A program made the translations under genes and the position numbers. 7,860 bases of DNA from Deltaproteobacteria bacterium. GTDB lineage: Bacteria; Bdellovibrionota_B; Oligoflexia; Oligoflexales; Bog-1112. The notes beneath the pieces are model-generated. The model did no database searches. It saw nothing but the letters and a program-made list of their open reading frames with translations, and had not been told where the DNA came from. The stretch is from the NCBI GenBank assembly GCA_016186945.1, contig JACPKR010000059.1, positions 1-7,860 on the forward strand. The letters are read 5' to 3'. Below, piece after piece: positions 240 to 7,860 of this stretch (position 1 is its first letter; each line of letters opens with the position of its first letter).

Positions 240-2294
240 ATGCCTCCCTCATCGTTTCGAAAATTTCTCCGAGCTGTAATCCTTCCCCAAGGAGGAGTTT
301 TTTCATTTTTTGCCAAAGTCATCGCTTTGACCCTCTGGGCAAGTGTTGTGATCGGTCTGGTCGCAGGCGGGTTTCTCTTTAACGAATTTGCGCAACTCGA
401 AGGTGACGGGCTGGAAACCATCATCAACTGGAAAGGTTTCGACAATACGATCATCTTTGACAGAAAGGGAGGCAAACTGGCTGAAGGTTACAGTCGGCAT
501 CATGTTTACTACCCGCTCTCGAAGATTCCTGAAGATCTTCAGAAAGCTGTCGTTGCCGTGGAAGACAGGAACTTTTGGAAGCATGACGGGTGGGATCTTG
601 AGGGAATTGCTCGTGCGGCCTACATCTACTTACAAGACCCACAGGCACCCTTCAAACAAGGGGCATCGACGATTACTCAGCAACTTGTCCGTCATTTTCT
701 TCTGCACCGAGACAAAACCATTACGAGGAAGGCACAAGAGATCCTCCTCGCTCGCCAACTTGAAAAACGATTGCCCAAGCGGCGCATTCTTGAAATTTAC
801 CTCAATGCCCTTTTCCTAGGTGACGGTGCCTATGGAGTCGGCGCGGCAGCCGAAAGGTTCTTTGGAAAGTCCTTGGAAAACTGCCAGACCCACGAGCTGG
901 CACTCATAGCAGGGTTATTCCAGGCTCCCAGCGCTCTTAACCCGCACCTCTATCCCGAAAAGGCTAAAGCACGACAAGCACAGGTACTTAGAGCCATGAC
1001 TGCGATTGGCGCTCTCGCTCCTTCCCAAGCACGAACCTGGTTAGGGAAAAACCTTGAATACCAGACTTACGAACCCCTTTACGGTCAGCGTGCTCCGTAT
1101 TTCGTAGATTTTGCAATGGAGGAAGCGCGAAACATTCTCGATAAGGGGACTTTGAAAAACCAGGGATTGCGCATTATCACATCTCTTGACCCCGACTTAC
1201 AGAAGCTTGCCGAACAGGCTTCCCTGGAGCAAAACGCAAGCTTGGAAGACGCCGAAAAGCAATCTTCCCACAGACTGGAAAGCGCACTGCTTGCTCTGGA
1301 TCCTCGCACTGGTGAGATACTGGCAATGGTCGGGGGGAGAGATTATAGCGCATCGCAATTCAACCGCACTTCCCAGGCCAAACGCCAGGCAGGTTCAGCA
1401 TTCAAGCCCATCGTCTATTCGCTGGCGCTAAGCAAAGGTCATCGCTGGAGCGACCTTTTCTTCGTCTCTCCCTTGACTCTGGGACAGAGCTACCGTCCTC
1501 GCAGTAAGGTTAACGATTATATTTCGGAAACAACCCTGCTACGGGCGCTCTACCGTTCCATGAACAGCCCGACTTTGCAGCTTAGCGAGACATTAGGGAT
1601 GGGAGCGATCATCGAACACGCGAAACTTCTAGGGATCGAGTCTCCCATACGGCACGAATTCGGCTCTGTCCTCGGTGCTTCAGAAGTTTCACTGCTGGAG
1701 ATAACAAGCGTCTACGGAGTCTTTGCCAACAAAGGACTGAAGGTACCTAGCTCCTCCATTCTGGAAATCAGAGATCGAAACGACAAAATCATCTTCCATC
1801 GCTCAAAACCGAAAGCGGAGAACGTTCTCAGCCCACAGGTCGCTTTCATGATGAGCCAAGGACTGCGCCAAGTCCTGGAGCGAGGGACAGGTTCCGCAGC
1901 TAAGGAACTCGCCCCCTGGATGGCAGGAAAAACAGGGACGACCAACGACAACAAAGACAACTGGTTTATAGGCTTCAGCAGCAACCTCGTCACCGGTGTC
2001 TGGGTGGGAAACGACGACTCGCAACCCATAATAGGAAAAGCAAGTGGCGCAGACCTGGCGCTTCCCCTTTGGCAATCGTTCATGACCGAGGTTCTCCCCA
2101 TGCGTCCCTCCTCACCTTTCCGCTCACCAGGCGGATTGAAGGCTTACACCGTGGATGAACGCTTCGGTTTTCAAAATAAGGATGGCATTACGATGTGGTT
2201 TTTCGAAAACGATGAGCCTCCCAAGACATCTCCCTACGAATACGTTACGGGGACGAAGAACTTCCGGAATCCTTTCGTGGGAGTCCGAAAATGA
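240..2294 (+). CDS. Class A penicillin-binding protein (bifunctional peptidoglycan glycosyltransferase/transpeptidase, PBP1A type)
   Basis: This inner-membrane enzyme polymerises lipid II into glycan strands and cross-links their peptides in the periplasm. From the ATG at 240 it is 684 residues. A short cytoplasmic tail precedes one membrane anchor (about 22-46). The GT51 domain follows: EDRNFWKHDG with catalytic Glu108, GASTITQQ at 141-148, RKAQE at 163-167, and the KRRILEIYLNALFLG block at 180-194. The transpeptidase domain has all three motifs: SAFK with the acylated Ser386, SMN at 440-442, and KTG at 564-566. Nothing catalytic is missing. I chose ATG 240 because AGGAG at 230-234 sits 5 nt before it. 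The frame is open back to a GTG at 99, but that would add an unlikely 47-residue head encoded partly by a C-rich tract and lies by the IS110 end. The stop overlaps the first tandem repeat unit. The downstream lipoprotein is its likely activator. The choice among PBP1A/1B/1C subfamilies is less certain than the class. Confidence 0.95.
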   Translation: MPPSSFRKFLRAVILPQGGVFSFFAKVIALTLWASVVIGLVAGGFLFNEFAQLEGDGLETIINWKGFDNTIIFDRKGGKLAEGYSRHHVYYPLSKIPEDLQKAVVAVEDRNFWKHDGWDLEGIARAAYIYLQDPQAPFKQGASTITQQLVRHFLLHRDKTITRKAQEILLARQLEKRLPKRRILEIYLNALFLGDGAYGVGAAAERFFGKSLENCQTHELALIAGLFQAPSALNPHLYPEKAKARQAQVLRAMTAIGALAPSQARTWLGKNLEYQTYEPLYGQRAPYFVDFAMEEARNILDKGTLKNQGLRIITSLDPDLQKLAEQASLEQNASLEDAEKQSSHRLESALLALDPRTGEILAMVGGRDYSASQFNRTSQAKRQAGSAFKPIVYSLALSKGHRWSDLFFVSPLTLGQSYRPRSKVNDYISETTLLRALYRSMNSPTLQLSETLGMGAIIEHAKLLGIESPIRHEFGSVLGASEVSLLEITSVYGVFANKGLKVPSSSILEIRDRNDKIIFHRSKPKAENVLSPQVAFMMSQGLRQVLERGTGSAAKELAPWMAGKTGTTNDNKDNWFIGFSSNLVTGVWVGNDDSQPIIGKASGADLALPLWQSFMTEVLPMRPSSPFRSPGGLKAYTVDERFGFQNKDGITMWFFENDEPPKTSPYEYVTGTKNFRNPFVGVRK

Positions 2295-2440
2295 CTATAG
2301 TGCTCAAAACAATCAATTGGGGGACAAACTTTTACAAGTCTGTCATCCCGCGGCTTGACCGCGGGATCCAACTTATTCGAGGAAGGCTGCCGTTGGATCC
2401 CGCGGTCAAGCCGCGGGATGACAGGGGAGGGGAACTTTAA
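2291..2440 (+). repeat. Repeat unit copy 1 (complete, 150 bp)
   Basis: It begins with ATGACTATAG, whose ATGA overlaps the PBP stop codon TGA (2292-2294). The perfect inverted repeat has 33-bp arms at 2340-2372 and 2392-2424 around a 19-nt loop. Each arm contains its own smaller palindrome, CCCGCGG-cttga-CCGCGGG, so a cruciform with sub-hairpins is possible. The unit is an open frame of 49 codons from the ATG at 2291 to TAA at 2438-2440. I do not annotate this as a gene because the encoded peptide is simply the palindrome read through. Confidence 0.9.
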
Positions 2441-2560
2441 ATGACTATAGTTTTCAAAACAATCAATTGGGGGACAAACTTTTACAAGTCTGTCATCCCG
2501 CGGCTTGACCGCGGGATCCAACTTATTCGAGGAAGGCTGCCGTTGGATCCCGCGGTCAAG
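2441..2560 (+). repeat. Repeat unit copy 2 (truncated: right palindrome arm cut)
   Basis: It repeats copy 1 from ATGACTATAG onward, differing at GTTTTC instead of GTGCTC near its start. The left arm (2491-2522) is complete, but only 19 nt of the right arm (2542-2560) remain. The sequence then jumps to TTGGGGGAC, internal to the next unit. A TCAA microhomology near the join (with one extra G) suggests replication slippage or recombination between units. Its ATG at 2441 reads to TGA at 2600-2602. Confidence 0.9.
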
Positions 2561-2686
2561 TTGGGGGACAAACTTTTACAAGTCTGTCATCCCGCGGCTT
2601 GACCGCGGGATCCAACTTATTCGAGGAAGGCTGCCGTTGGATCCCGCGGTCAAGCCGCGGGATGACAGTGGAGGGGAACTTTTTTT
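2561..2686 (+). repeat. Repeat unit copy 3 (lacks first 26 bp; palindrome complete)
   Basis: Offset by 244 bp from copy 1, it carries the full palindrome with arms at 2584-2616 and 2636-2668. The frame used by the open units in copies 1 and 2 runs here without a stop straight into the lipoprotein coding sequence at 2694 (…DDSGGELFFKK-MSSPQ). The unit ends in GGAACTTTTTTTC, giving a U-run about 13 nt after the stem. That is too distant for a standard terminator. Confidence 0.9.
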
Positions 2687-2693
2687 CAAAAAA

Positions 2694-4211
2694 ATGTCCT
2701 CTCCACAAATTCTTTTTCCCAAATACTATAGATGTCTCGCGATTAGCTTTTTAATAGTGCTGCTCTTCTCGTGTACCACTCCGAAACACTCGGTTACGTG
2801 GAAAGAACTCGACAGATTCACCGAACTCTCCGAGAACCAAAAAGCCCGACAAGAGAAAGCCAAGCATCAAAGCGAACTCTGCCAGCAGATCGTCGAGACG
2901 CTATCCCCCGCTTATGCGAAACTTAGCAAGTTCATAGTTGGTCCCGTGAACGCCCGAGATCCCCTGATCCAACTGAGCAAACTTAAAAAGAACGACTGCG
3001 TAGGAAACGATCGATGGGATGTCTTTCGACTCATCTCTCGCGGTATTAACGAACACAACACAAAAATAGGCGTCATCCTGCCATTATCGTCTACAGGAGA
3101 GATTGGGAAAACGTTGTTGCGCGGCATCAAGTCGGGGATGGAAGGAAGCGGAAGCGAGCAAGTTTTTGTTTTCAAAGATCGAGACACGACCCCCTCACTG
3201 GATTCCCTTCTAGCCCAGTTAGTATTTCGAGATAAGGTAGGACTCATCATAGGGGGGGTGAATGCTGAGGACGCCAGCCGACTTGCGGCTTGGTCGGAGG
3301 ACCTTTTATTACCTTCGCTTCTCATCGTGGAAAAAAGATCGGTGCTCTATTCCACACCTGAGCGAAGTTCACACCCCTATGTTTTTCCTATAACACTCGC
3401 TGAGTCGTCTACGGCGCGCGCGCTTGCTATGACATCGCATCAGAAACAATTGCGCCGGGTCAGTTTCCTTCGCCCACTCAGTGGAAAAGCAGACGAACTT
3501 TGCACAAAGTTCCGAAAGGAGTTGCAGAAGTTCGGGATCGAGGTCACGCATGATATTCAATATGAGGCCGGAGATTACCGTTCAATGGATAGCGCCGTCA
3601 TGACGGTGACAGGAACAGGAACGGCGGAACGAATGGCTGAATACAGGGACCTTTACGAGAAAAAATTCGAAGAGGCGAAAAAGCAGGGTTTACGCTTTTC
3701 CCCCCACTCGGTAGTTCTTCCTCCCCTCATGGACGCAGACGCTGTTTTTATCCCCGATGATTTTCGGATCGTCCGCCACTTCGTCAACCTTTTCAAATAT
3801 CACGGGATCGACAAAGTAACCATGATCGGAAACAACGAATGGCGTTCGTCCGCCCTTATTCAACCCTGGGATCCTTTTTTACACGGGTCTTTTTTCGCCG
3901 ACCATGTGGGGAGCTACGCAAAGTTGCCGGGCGGGATGCAGTACGAATTCGATAGTTCGGAGTACTTTGTGCTTCCTTCCGTTGCGGGACAAATTGATCT
4001 GCAAATGATGGGCTATCACGCAGCAAAAATAGCGTTAAGCGCGTCGCAAAACCCTCTTACCACGAAACGAGAAATCGTTAAAAAATTGAGACTCCTGCCG
4101 CAATTCTCGAAAGACAACGTCTTCGAGTGGCCCATCTATCTTTTCACCATCAAAGACCGTCGGCTGGAGTTTGCCTGGAAACTCGAACCCAAAACGGAGC
4201 CTGAGGAATGA
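2694..4211 (+). CDS. Penicillin-binding protein activator-like lipoprotein (type 1 periplasmic-binding fold, LpoA/LppC-like)
   Basis: It encodes 505 residues from ATG 2694. The N-terminus is a lipoprotein signal: basic/aromatic start, hydrophobic run 14-25, then LLFSC with Cys27 as the lipidation site, so the protein should be anchored in an outer or inner membrane facing the periplasm. A helical linker (about 33-120) precedes a type 1 periplasmic-binding (Peripla_BP_6-like) domain starting at KIGVILPLSSTGEIGKTLLR (124-143) and running to the C-terminus. Proteins of this layout activate class A PBPs, as E. coli LpoA does for PBP1A. The PBP gene directly upstream supports that role, though no partner contact can be read from sequence. 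No good ribosome binding site sits at the usual distance; GGAGGGG at 2670-2676 is 17 nt away. The frame is open upstream through repeat copy 3, so the true start is uncertain (see findings). The main alternative is an amino-acid ABC-transporter binding protein, but no permease genes are nearby. Confidence 0.8.
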   Translation: MSSPQILFPKYYRCLAISFLIVLLFSCTTPKHSVTWKELDRFTELSENQKARQEKAKHQSELCQQIVETLSPAYAKLSKFIVGPVNARDPLIQLSKLKKNDCVGNDRWDVFRLISRGINEHNTKIGVILPLSSTGEIGKTLLRGIKSGMEGSGSEQVFVFKDRDTTPSLDSLLAQLVFRDKVGLIIGGVNAEDASRLAAWSEDLLLPSLLIVEKRSVLYSTPERSSHPYVFPITLAESSTARALAMTSHQKQLRRVSFLRPLSGKADELCTKFRKELQKFGIEVTHDIQYEAGDYRSMDSAVMTVTGTGTAERMAEYRDLYEKKFEEAKKQGLRFSPHSVVLPPLMDADAVFIPDDFRIVRHFVNLFKYHGIDKVTMIGNNEWRSSALIQPWDPFLHGSFFADHVGSYAKLPGGMQYEFDSSEYFVLPSVAGQIDLQMMGYHAAKIALSASQNPLTTKREIVKKLRLLPQFSKDNVFEWPIYLFTIKDRRLEFAWKLEPKTEPEE

Positions 4212-7488: not shown

Positions 7489-7501
7489 TTCTGCAAGAGT
7501 T

Positions 7502-7719: not shown

Positions 7720-7722
7720 GTC

Positions 7723-7757
7723 GGGTAACCTCTGGGGATTGCTCCCCAGAAGTCCCC
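7723..7757 (-). ncRNA. Group II intron domain VI with branch-point adenosine
   Basis: On the minus strand ACTTCTGGGG pairs with CCCCAGAGGT around the loop AGCAAT, and GGGG closes on TACCC. The A at 7726 is left bulged, seven nucleotides from the intron end at 7720, the usual place of the lariat branch point. Confidence 0.8.
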
Positions 7758-7760
7758 TAA

Positions 7761-7794
7761 GAACCGTGCGTGCGAGTTTCCCCGCACACGGCTC
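7761..7794 (-). ncRNA. Group II intron domain V
   Basis: This 34-nt hairpin begins GAGCCG and ends CGGTTC on the minus strand. The catalytic AGC triad is at nt 2-4, there is a GAAA tetraloop (GGGGAAACTC), and the distal stem pairs GTGCG with CGCAC. Length and landmarks match the canonical domain V exactly. Confidence 0.9.
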
Positions 7795-7860
7795 AAGCCT
7801 TTCTAAGACATCTCGGTTGAGATTTCCGGTGACAACGTCACTCGTTTCGCGGCCAATAGT

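Follow-up and report, generated by a model that had tools for sequence, protein, structure and literature searches.

Probable displacement of a lipoprotein start codon by a protein-readable miniature inverted-repeat transposable element in a bacterium from in or near the Oligoflexales

Introduction

Miniature inverted-repeat transposable elements (MITEs) derived from IS630/Tc1-mariner transposons have a TA target, a preference for CTAG and inverted termini. Here, we describe a MITE with the same TA target, CTAG preference and inverted termini from a 7,860-nucleotide stretch of DNA (the window; contig JACPKR010000059.1 of assembly GCA_016186945.1), where it lies between the genes of a penicillin-binding protein (PBP) and a lipoprotein. 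It differs from the IS630/Tc1-mariner derivatives in that no IS630 or DDE_3 transposase was found in the source genome (G000), which its named relatives place in or near the Oligoflexales, i.e. not in the Rickettsiales.

Small mobile units with open frames are known from enterobacteria as the MITEs RU-1/ERIC and RU-2/YPAL; ERIC termini carry TA, RU-2 contributes to the signal peptide predicted for YPO1552, and RU-1 removed a native stop codon (Delihas 2007, PMC2759123; PMC2229807). The element studied here has another sequence and belongs to another phylum, and it splits a stop/start overlap whose displaced start can be deduced from the flanks and from relatives. QMITE1 and QMITE2 of Coxiella are described as MITEs that add or remove codons at gene ends, some of them in frame; the published cases include C-terminal (enhC) and mid-ORF in-frame ones, whereas the cases here concern N-termini and start codons (PMC5896051). 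Rickettsia palindromic elements (RPEs) are dispersed palindromic sequences of 100-200 bp with an open frame, fused in frame to unrelated genes, as two reviews relate from Ogata 2000 and 2002 (PMC10969869, PMC2229807). An initial annotation of the window likened its repeat to RPEs, and the likeness holds, as the MITE has one frame open throughout and is fused in frame to the N-termini of genes. It is, however, a TA-flanked MITE of Bdellovibrionota concentrated at gene ends and starts, in contrast to the gene interiors occupied by RPEs. Since the host lineage is another one and the comparison was drawn from descriptions of RPEs, we do not file the MITE among them.

Results and discussion

A dispersed MITE between two genes

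What separates the two genes is a tandem array in which a MITE that is scattered through the genome is present three times, each time incompletely. We consider it highly probable, as a whole account, that a protein-readable MITE inserted in an ATGA overlap of the PBP stop and the lipoprotein start, displaced that start and was then enlarged by duplications. The features of the junction are:

99 to 2294, + strand: class A PBP gene, PBP1A family (TIGR02074, 530.6 bits, above cut-off; Transgly and Transpeptidase domains)
2292 to 2294, + strand: TGA stop codon of the PBP gene, from the sequence
2278 to 2283, + strand: TGGGAG, putative Shine-Dalgarno (SD) sequence for ATG 2291, the presumed first start of the lipoprotein gene, at a distance of 7 nt
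2291 to 2294, + strand: ATGA, host DNA, PBP stop overlapping the putative ancestral lipoprotein start (joined flanks give an in-frame signal peptide)
2296 to 2297, + strand: left TA of the putative target-site duplication (C-TA; left ends have C in 64%, T in 96% and A in 92%)
2298 to 2728, + strand: MITE array, palindrome-bearing form, enlarged by 150-bp and 94-bp tandem duplications (boundaries from 91 complete copies)
2729 to 2731, + strand: right TA of the putative target-site duplication, then G (TA-G; from the alignment of element ends)
2730 to 2774, + strand: host-coded remainder of the lipoprotein signal peptide, RCLAISFLIVLLFS, with the lipobox Cys at 2772-2774 (alignment with signal peptides of relatives)
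2694 to 4211, + strand: lipoprotein gene downstream of the PBP gene (Peripla_BP_6-like, below cut-off)

Copy 1 of the array matched the genome at 108 places, far beyond chance, and 136 left and 152 right ends were counted in G000. Boundaries and terminal statistics were taken from the 91 complete copies of this genome. Aligned with their flanks, copies have the left end (C)TATAGTGTTCAAGATAATCAATTTGGGGA and the right end GGTCCTCTCCACAAATTCTTTTTCCCAAATACTATA(G), with termini TATAGTGTTCAAGATAATCAATTT; over the 91 copies the ends read C-TA-TAGT...ACTA-TA-G, with the outer C in 64%, the outer G in 48% and random bases beyond, which fits a TA target with a preference for CTAG. These C-TA...TA-G ends are consistent with a TA target-site duplication, and applying the TA rule to another insertion (L220) gives back a native TAG stop. 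Twenty-two of the 30 terminal bases match between the inverted repeats. Complete copies range from 84 to 437 bp, the commonest form being 169 bp long (44 copies); forms of 84-86 bp are internally deleted, and the palindrome-bearing forms, among them the window copy, are mostly 177-224 bp. Many short copies, terminal inverted repeats and no coded transposase make the family a MITE family.

The element had zero copies in 55 relatives by DNA search and zero in 57 relatives by end pattern. In Rfam the repeat had no match (the one hit was the group II intron where the contig ends), the palindrome matched nothing in plasmids, and the peptide PRLDRGIQ was absent from the literature searched; the MITE family was found nowhere in the papers searched.

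Three other delimitations were discarded. The palindrome alone is ruled out as the element by the TA-flanked terminal inverted repeats that surround it in genomic copies, ATGA is ruled out as part of it by the unrelated bases that precede CTATAG in other copies, and a 4-bp YTAR duplication is ruled out as the ends read TATAGT and YTAR is not repeated.

Insertions cluster at the ends of genes, with 40 of the 91 complete copies no more than 20 nt from a stop codon compared to 8.2% of nearby TA sites (p about 6e-20). In nine of the 91 the target TA is inside a TAG-type stop codon, and stop codons are probably targets because CTAG and TTAG contain TAG. Seven contigs of G000 (C7, C27, C46, C54, C56, C63 and C75) end in or beside palindrome copies, and it was probably this repeat that interrupted the assembly.

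The predicted ancestral junction

When the flanks of the array are joined on one TA they read AAA ATG ACT AGA TGT CTC GCG ATT AGC, MTRCLAISFLIVLLFSC, which is a lipoprotein signal peptide in frame, starting with a 4-bp overlap of the PBP stop (ATGA) and having the predicted N-terminus MTRCLAISF. The predicted junction is ATGACTAGATGTC-like, and the allele predicted for an empty site under the TA rule is AAAATGACTAGATGTCTCGCG. Of the 29 loci compared in relatives, 27 have the PBP gene immediately before the lipoprotein gene, and in the other two the contig ends first. The distance from the PBP stop to the lipoprotein start runs from about -20 to +25 nt in the loci that allowed a start to be judged (L057 and L071 did not). 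Overlaps take the form ATGA in L068 and L074, GTGA in L076 and TGATG in L067, and none of these relatives holds the MITE or a long spacer. The flank join and the adjacent genes and starts of relatives agree with the initial annotation that the lipoprotein once began at the ATGA and had its start displaced by the insertion, which we consider very probable.

The target of the insertion would have been the TA in a CTAG, with five bases of the lipoprotein gene ahead of it and the ATG of that gene overlapping the PBP stop (ATGA). Counted once, the palindrome-bearing copy would have parted MT from RCLAISF by 63 codons, on the N-terminal side of the hydrophobic core of the signal peptide. An in-frame insertion a few codons in, followed by duplication, had been foreseen, and its position is supported; what inserted was a MITE carrying the palindrome and not the palindrome by itself.

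The initial annotation took the palindromic unit to include the ATGA and reconstructed the ancestral lipoprotein as MTIVFKK-MSSPQ, with the palindrome inserted between the two parts and then duplicated, which predicts the element-free junction MTIVFKKMSSPQ. The heading of both tandem copies by ATGACTATAG and the unit length of 50 codons speak for it, but the bases ahead of CTATAG differ in other copies, and IVFK and SSPQILFPKYY both recur as element ends elsewhere in the genome. That N-terminus has to be given up for the MTRCLAISF of the flank join, and we find this history, together with its junction, scarcely credible.

Several observations weigh against an insertion of the MITE in an ATGA overlap, or against parts of that account. 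No same-species empty site was found, and the TA rule comes from the copy ends. Searches of G000 with the DDE_3 (PF13358) and IS630 (NF033545) models found no transposase, in an assembly that is fragmented and 91% complete. The contig is one of 76 and 7,860 bp long; arrays of palindromes assemble badly, and the number of copies in this one may be wrong. Another cut (ATGA|GATG, joining ATGA to GATGTC) is likewise in frame and gives MRCLAISF, which leaves doubt about the first two or three residues. Relatives of the same family, the nearest ones, have spacers of 10 (L077), 15 (L054) and 25 nt (L049) and no ATGA; the comparison with repeat-free relatives that the initial annotation called for favours the displaced start through gene adjacency, through the lack of repeat or long spacer and through L068 and L074, and not through these nearest relatives. 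The palindrome-bearing consensus, at 192 bp, would break the frame, which the window copy keeps because of its extra A. The annotated start, ATG 2694, is within a hairpin, with an SD-like GGAGGGG that is 17 nt away and paired.

The tandem array

The repeat that was noticed initially spans 2291-2690, and its parts are:

2289 to 2438, + strand: 150-bp tandem unit, copy 1, made up of host AAATGA and the MITE as far as GAACTTT
2439 to 2560, + strand: tandem copy 2, beginning AAATGACTATAG and interrupted by the 94-bp duplication (repeat comparison)
2561 to 2654, + strand: 94-bp duplicate of 2467-2560, identical at 94 of 94 bases
2340 to 2424, no strand: 33-bp perfect inverted repeat (CTGTCATCCCGCGGCTTGACCGCGGGATCCAAC) with a 19-nt loop in copy 1, intact again at 2584-2668
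2291 to 2440, + strand: mini open reading frame (ORF) 1, 49 aa, from the putative ancestral start to a TAA that arose at the duplication junction
2441 to 2602, + strand: mini-ORF 2, 53 aa, stop TGA; its ATG abuts the TAA, and its SD GGAGGGG (2426-2432) is 8 nt upstream

Repeat comparison recovered the three copies, the opening of copy 1 with ATGACTATAG on the PBP stop (ATGA at 2291-2294) and the 50-codon unit, all of which had been described before. Tandem copies start at 2289 and 2439, a spacing of 150 bp, and copies 1 and 2 share 118 of 120 bases up to the third copy, which follows at a spacing of 94 bp. The duplication unit, AAATGACTATAG...GAACTTT, carries six host bases along, and the repeat appeared to begin with the stop/start because the 150-bp duplication took in the host ATGA bases. 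A beginning at ATGA is consequently true of the tandem unit and not of the element, which begins (C)TATAG after unrelated bases elsewhere. The end formerly set at 2690 was too early, as the MITE runs on to about 2730, beyond the annotated start; its right end holds ATG 2694 and codons for SSPQILFPKYY, and host DNA resumes at about 2729.

After the insertion, the 150-bp tandem duplication would have copied the ATGA region together with the MITE, creating the TAA-ATG joint with its strong SD, and a later 94-bp duplication would have shifted the ATG 2441 start out of frame. The 94-bp offset of the third copy puts both ATG 2291 and ATG 2441 out of frame with the lipoprotein. An in-frame relation between repeat and lipoprotein, as first proposed, exists for the unit frame of copy 3, which opens at 2451 and continues into the lipoprotein (ORF 2505-4211); from ATG 2291 and ATG 2441 only the mini-ORFs are opened. 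The complete identity of the 94-bp duplicate suggests either that the duplication is recent or that it is an assembly error. In the same genome the palindrome-bearing form has repeated internal tandem duplications at L015, L027 and L034, so the window array is not unique in this respect.

The MITE as coding sequence

Of the six reading frames of the 169-bp form, one is free of stops in 38 of the 44 copies and the other five in no copy. As in RPEs, this frame is open through the whole element, and it is the one that runs into the lipoprotein. The 169-bp MITE has the consensus translation IVFKIINLGTNFLKKVISPSPFSKTSIFKVFWGEAWRGTFFQKRSSPQILFPKYY and inserts 165 nt, or 55 codons, so that an insertion in the open frame adds residues and does not destroy the gene. 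The palindrome-bearing consensus is also open in one frame, and the window copy, with its present bases counted once, inserts 189 nt (63 codons).

By empty-site reconstruction, six genes including the window lipoprotein were entered by the MITE in its one open frame, for which the chance is 1/3 to the sixth power, or 0.0014, a figure that counts for less as the six-gene frame count was chosen after looking. A secreted protein (L192) is natively MPLYS-IIFLFILAGSASA, with the MITE between the two parts; a PMT_2 protein (L143) reads GTG ARSKSAF and then MITE; and an M28-peptidase lipoprotein (L027) reads GTG VKILDTRKP, MITE and then SIFLLSLLIAC. In these three the MITE is in frame at the N-terminus, and none was seen in gene interiors. 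The host part of guaA (L119; TIGR00888) has no start ahead of ILIIDYGSQY, and AGGAG-CTATA-GTG sets the first GTG of the MITE 5 nt past a Shine-Dalgarno sequence; guaA frames of relatives offer possible starts no more than about ten to twenty residues from this motif, just after the upstream gene. The sixth gene, an ABC (ATP-binding cassette) transporter (L220), has the MITE at its 5' end in the open frame. The MITE copies of L119 and L220 have lost 18 nt and 54 nt internally, in each case a multiple of three. A different case is uvrC (L214; TIGR00194), where a start ATG forms at the right MITE boundary.

The open frame begins with a GTG that lies close to the target, only a few nt away, and closes with a basic stretch, KRSSPQILFPKYY. 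We tentatively suggest that the MITE is fitted to survive insertion at gene starts, where it would serve several genes, guaA among them, as a mobile substitute for their start and N-terminus, and that the basic stretch would be suited to precede a signal-peptide core; the idea as a whole is speculative. New in this MITE family is the visible splitting of a stop/start overlap and donation of a start codon. With it, protein-coding mobile elements of the RPE type would be known from a second lineage that is unrelated to the first, and the site tolerated there is the gene start, comprising stop/start junctions, signal peptides and even the start codon. Ways in which coding sequence absorbs a transposon (an open-frame element, a tolerant n-region, a new start from the element) thereby become testable.

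The start codon used today

Three features bear on the present start of the lipoprotein:

2694 to 2696, + strand: annotated start ATG, within the MITE (AGG in other copies)
2668 to 2706, + strand: MITE right-end hairpin, pairing GGAGGGG with CCTCTCC and enclosing ATG 2694 (from the sequence)
2623 to 2639, + strand: candidate present start, made up of TTG 2637-2639, which shares the lipoprotein frame, and of SD GAGGAAGG at 2623-2630, within the loop of the hairpin

Today the lipoprotein would have to start inside the MITE, at ATG 2694, TTG 2637 or both. At the position of ATG 2694, one of 125 right ends and one of 19 aligned copies have an ATG, nearly all others having AGG, and its presence in the window copy, a coincidence of about 1%, is suggestive only. 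We favour ATG 2694 and give it an even chance of being in use; TTG 2637, with its SD in the palindrome loop 6 nt upstream, is a somewhat weaker candidate. The best site belongs to ATG 2441 (GGAGGGG at 8 nt), whose frame was lost through the 94-bp duplication. The case also warns that transposon sequence may have been annotated as the N-terminus of a protein, of which MSSPQILFPKYY would be an example.

Ribosomes leaving the PBP gene might also translate mini-ORF 1, resume at TAA-ATG 2441 and, after the stop at 2602, start once more at TTG 2637 or ATG 2694, melting the hairpins as they pass. Such a relay, by which the array would preserve translational coupling, is compatible with the insertion and would make use of the contiguous mini-ORFs, of the SD before 2441 and of GAGGAAGG ahead of TTG 2637; the open unit frame is however common to most copies, so local selection is unneeded, and we regard the relay as possible but doubtful.

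The out-of-frame positions of ATG 2291 and ATG 2441, and the buried, distant SD of ATG 2694, would also suit a decaying pseudogene, silenced by the insertion and the frame-breaking duplications, in which ATG 2694 is accidental. Against this, the gene has 505 stop-free codons that align at full length with relatives at about 27-34% identity, and the identity of the 94-bp duplicate makes the frame break recent; we judge a pseudogene improbable, and a displaced lipoprotein gene that is presumably still translated remains the preferred reading. The protein has a lipobox and a sub-threshold match to Peripla_BP_6, and no match to the LpoA model in the domain-model search. Activators of the LpoA type are outer-membrane lipoproteins with an LpoA domain, encoded beside a class A PBP; here it is the synteny with the PBP gene that suggests a possible role as activator.

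Downstream of the lipoprotein gene, the window between 4338 and 7413 holds minus-strand genes for a methyltransferase, a DUF2000 protein and a helix-turn-helix (HTH)-cupin regulator, with little else recognisable. At the contig end, a group II intron domain (RF00029, 63.9 bits; 7720-7796, minus strand) seems to split a short ORF beginning near 7500.

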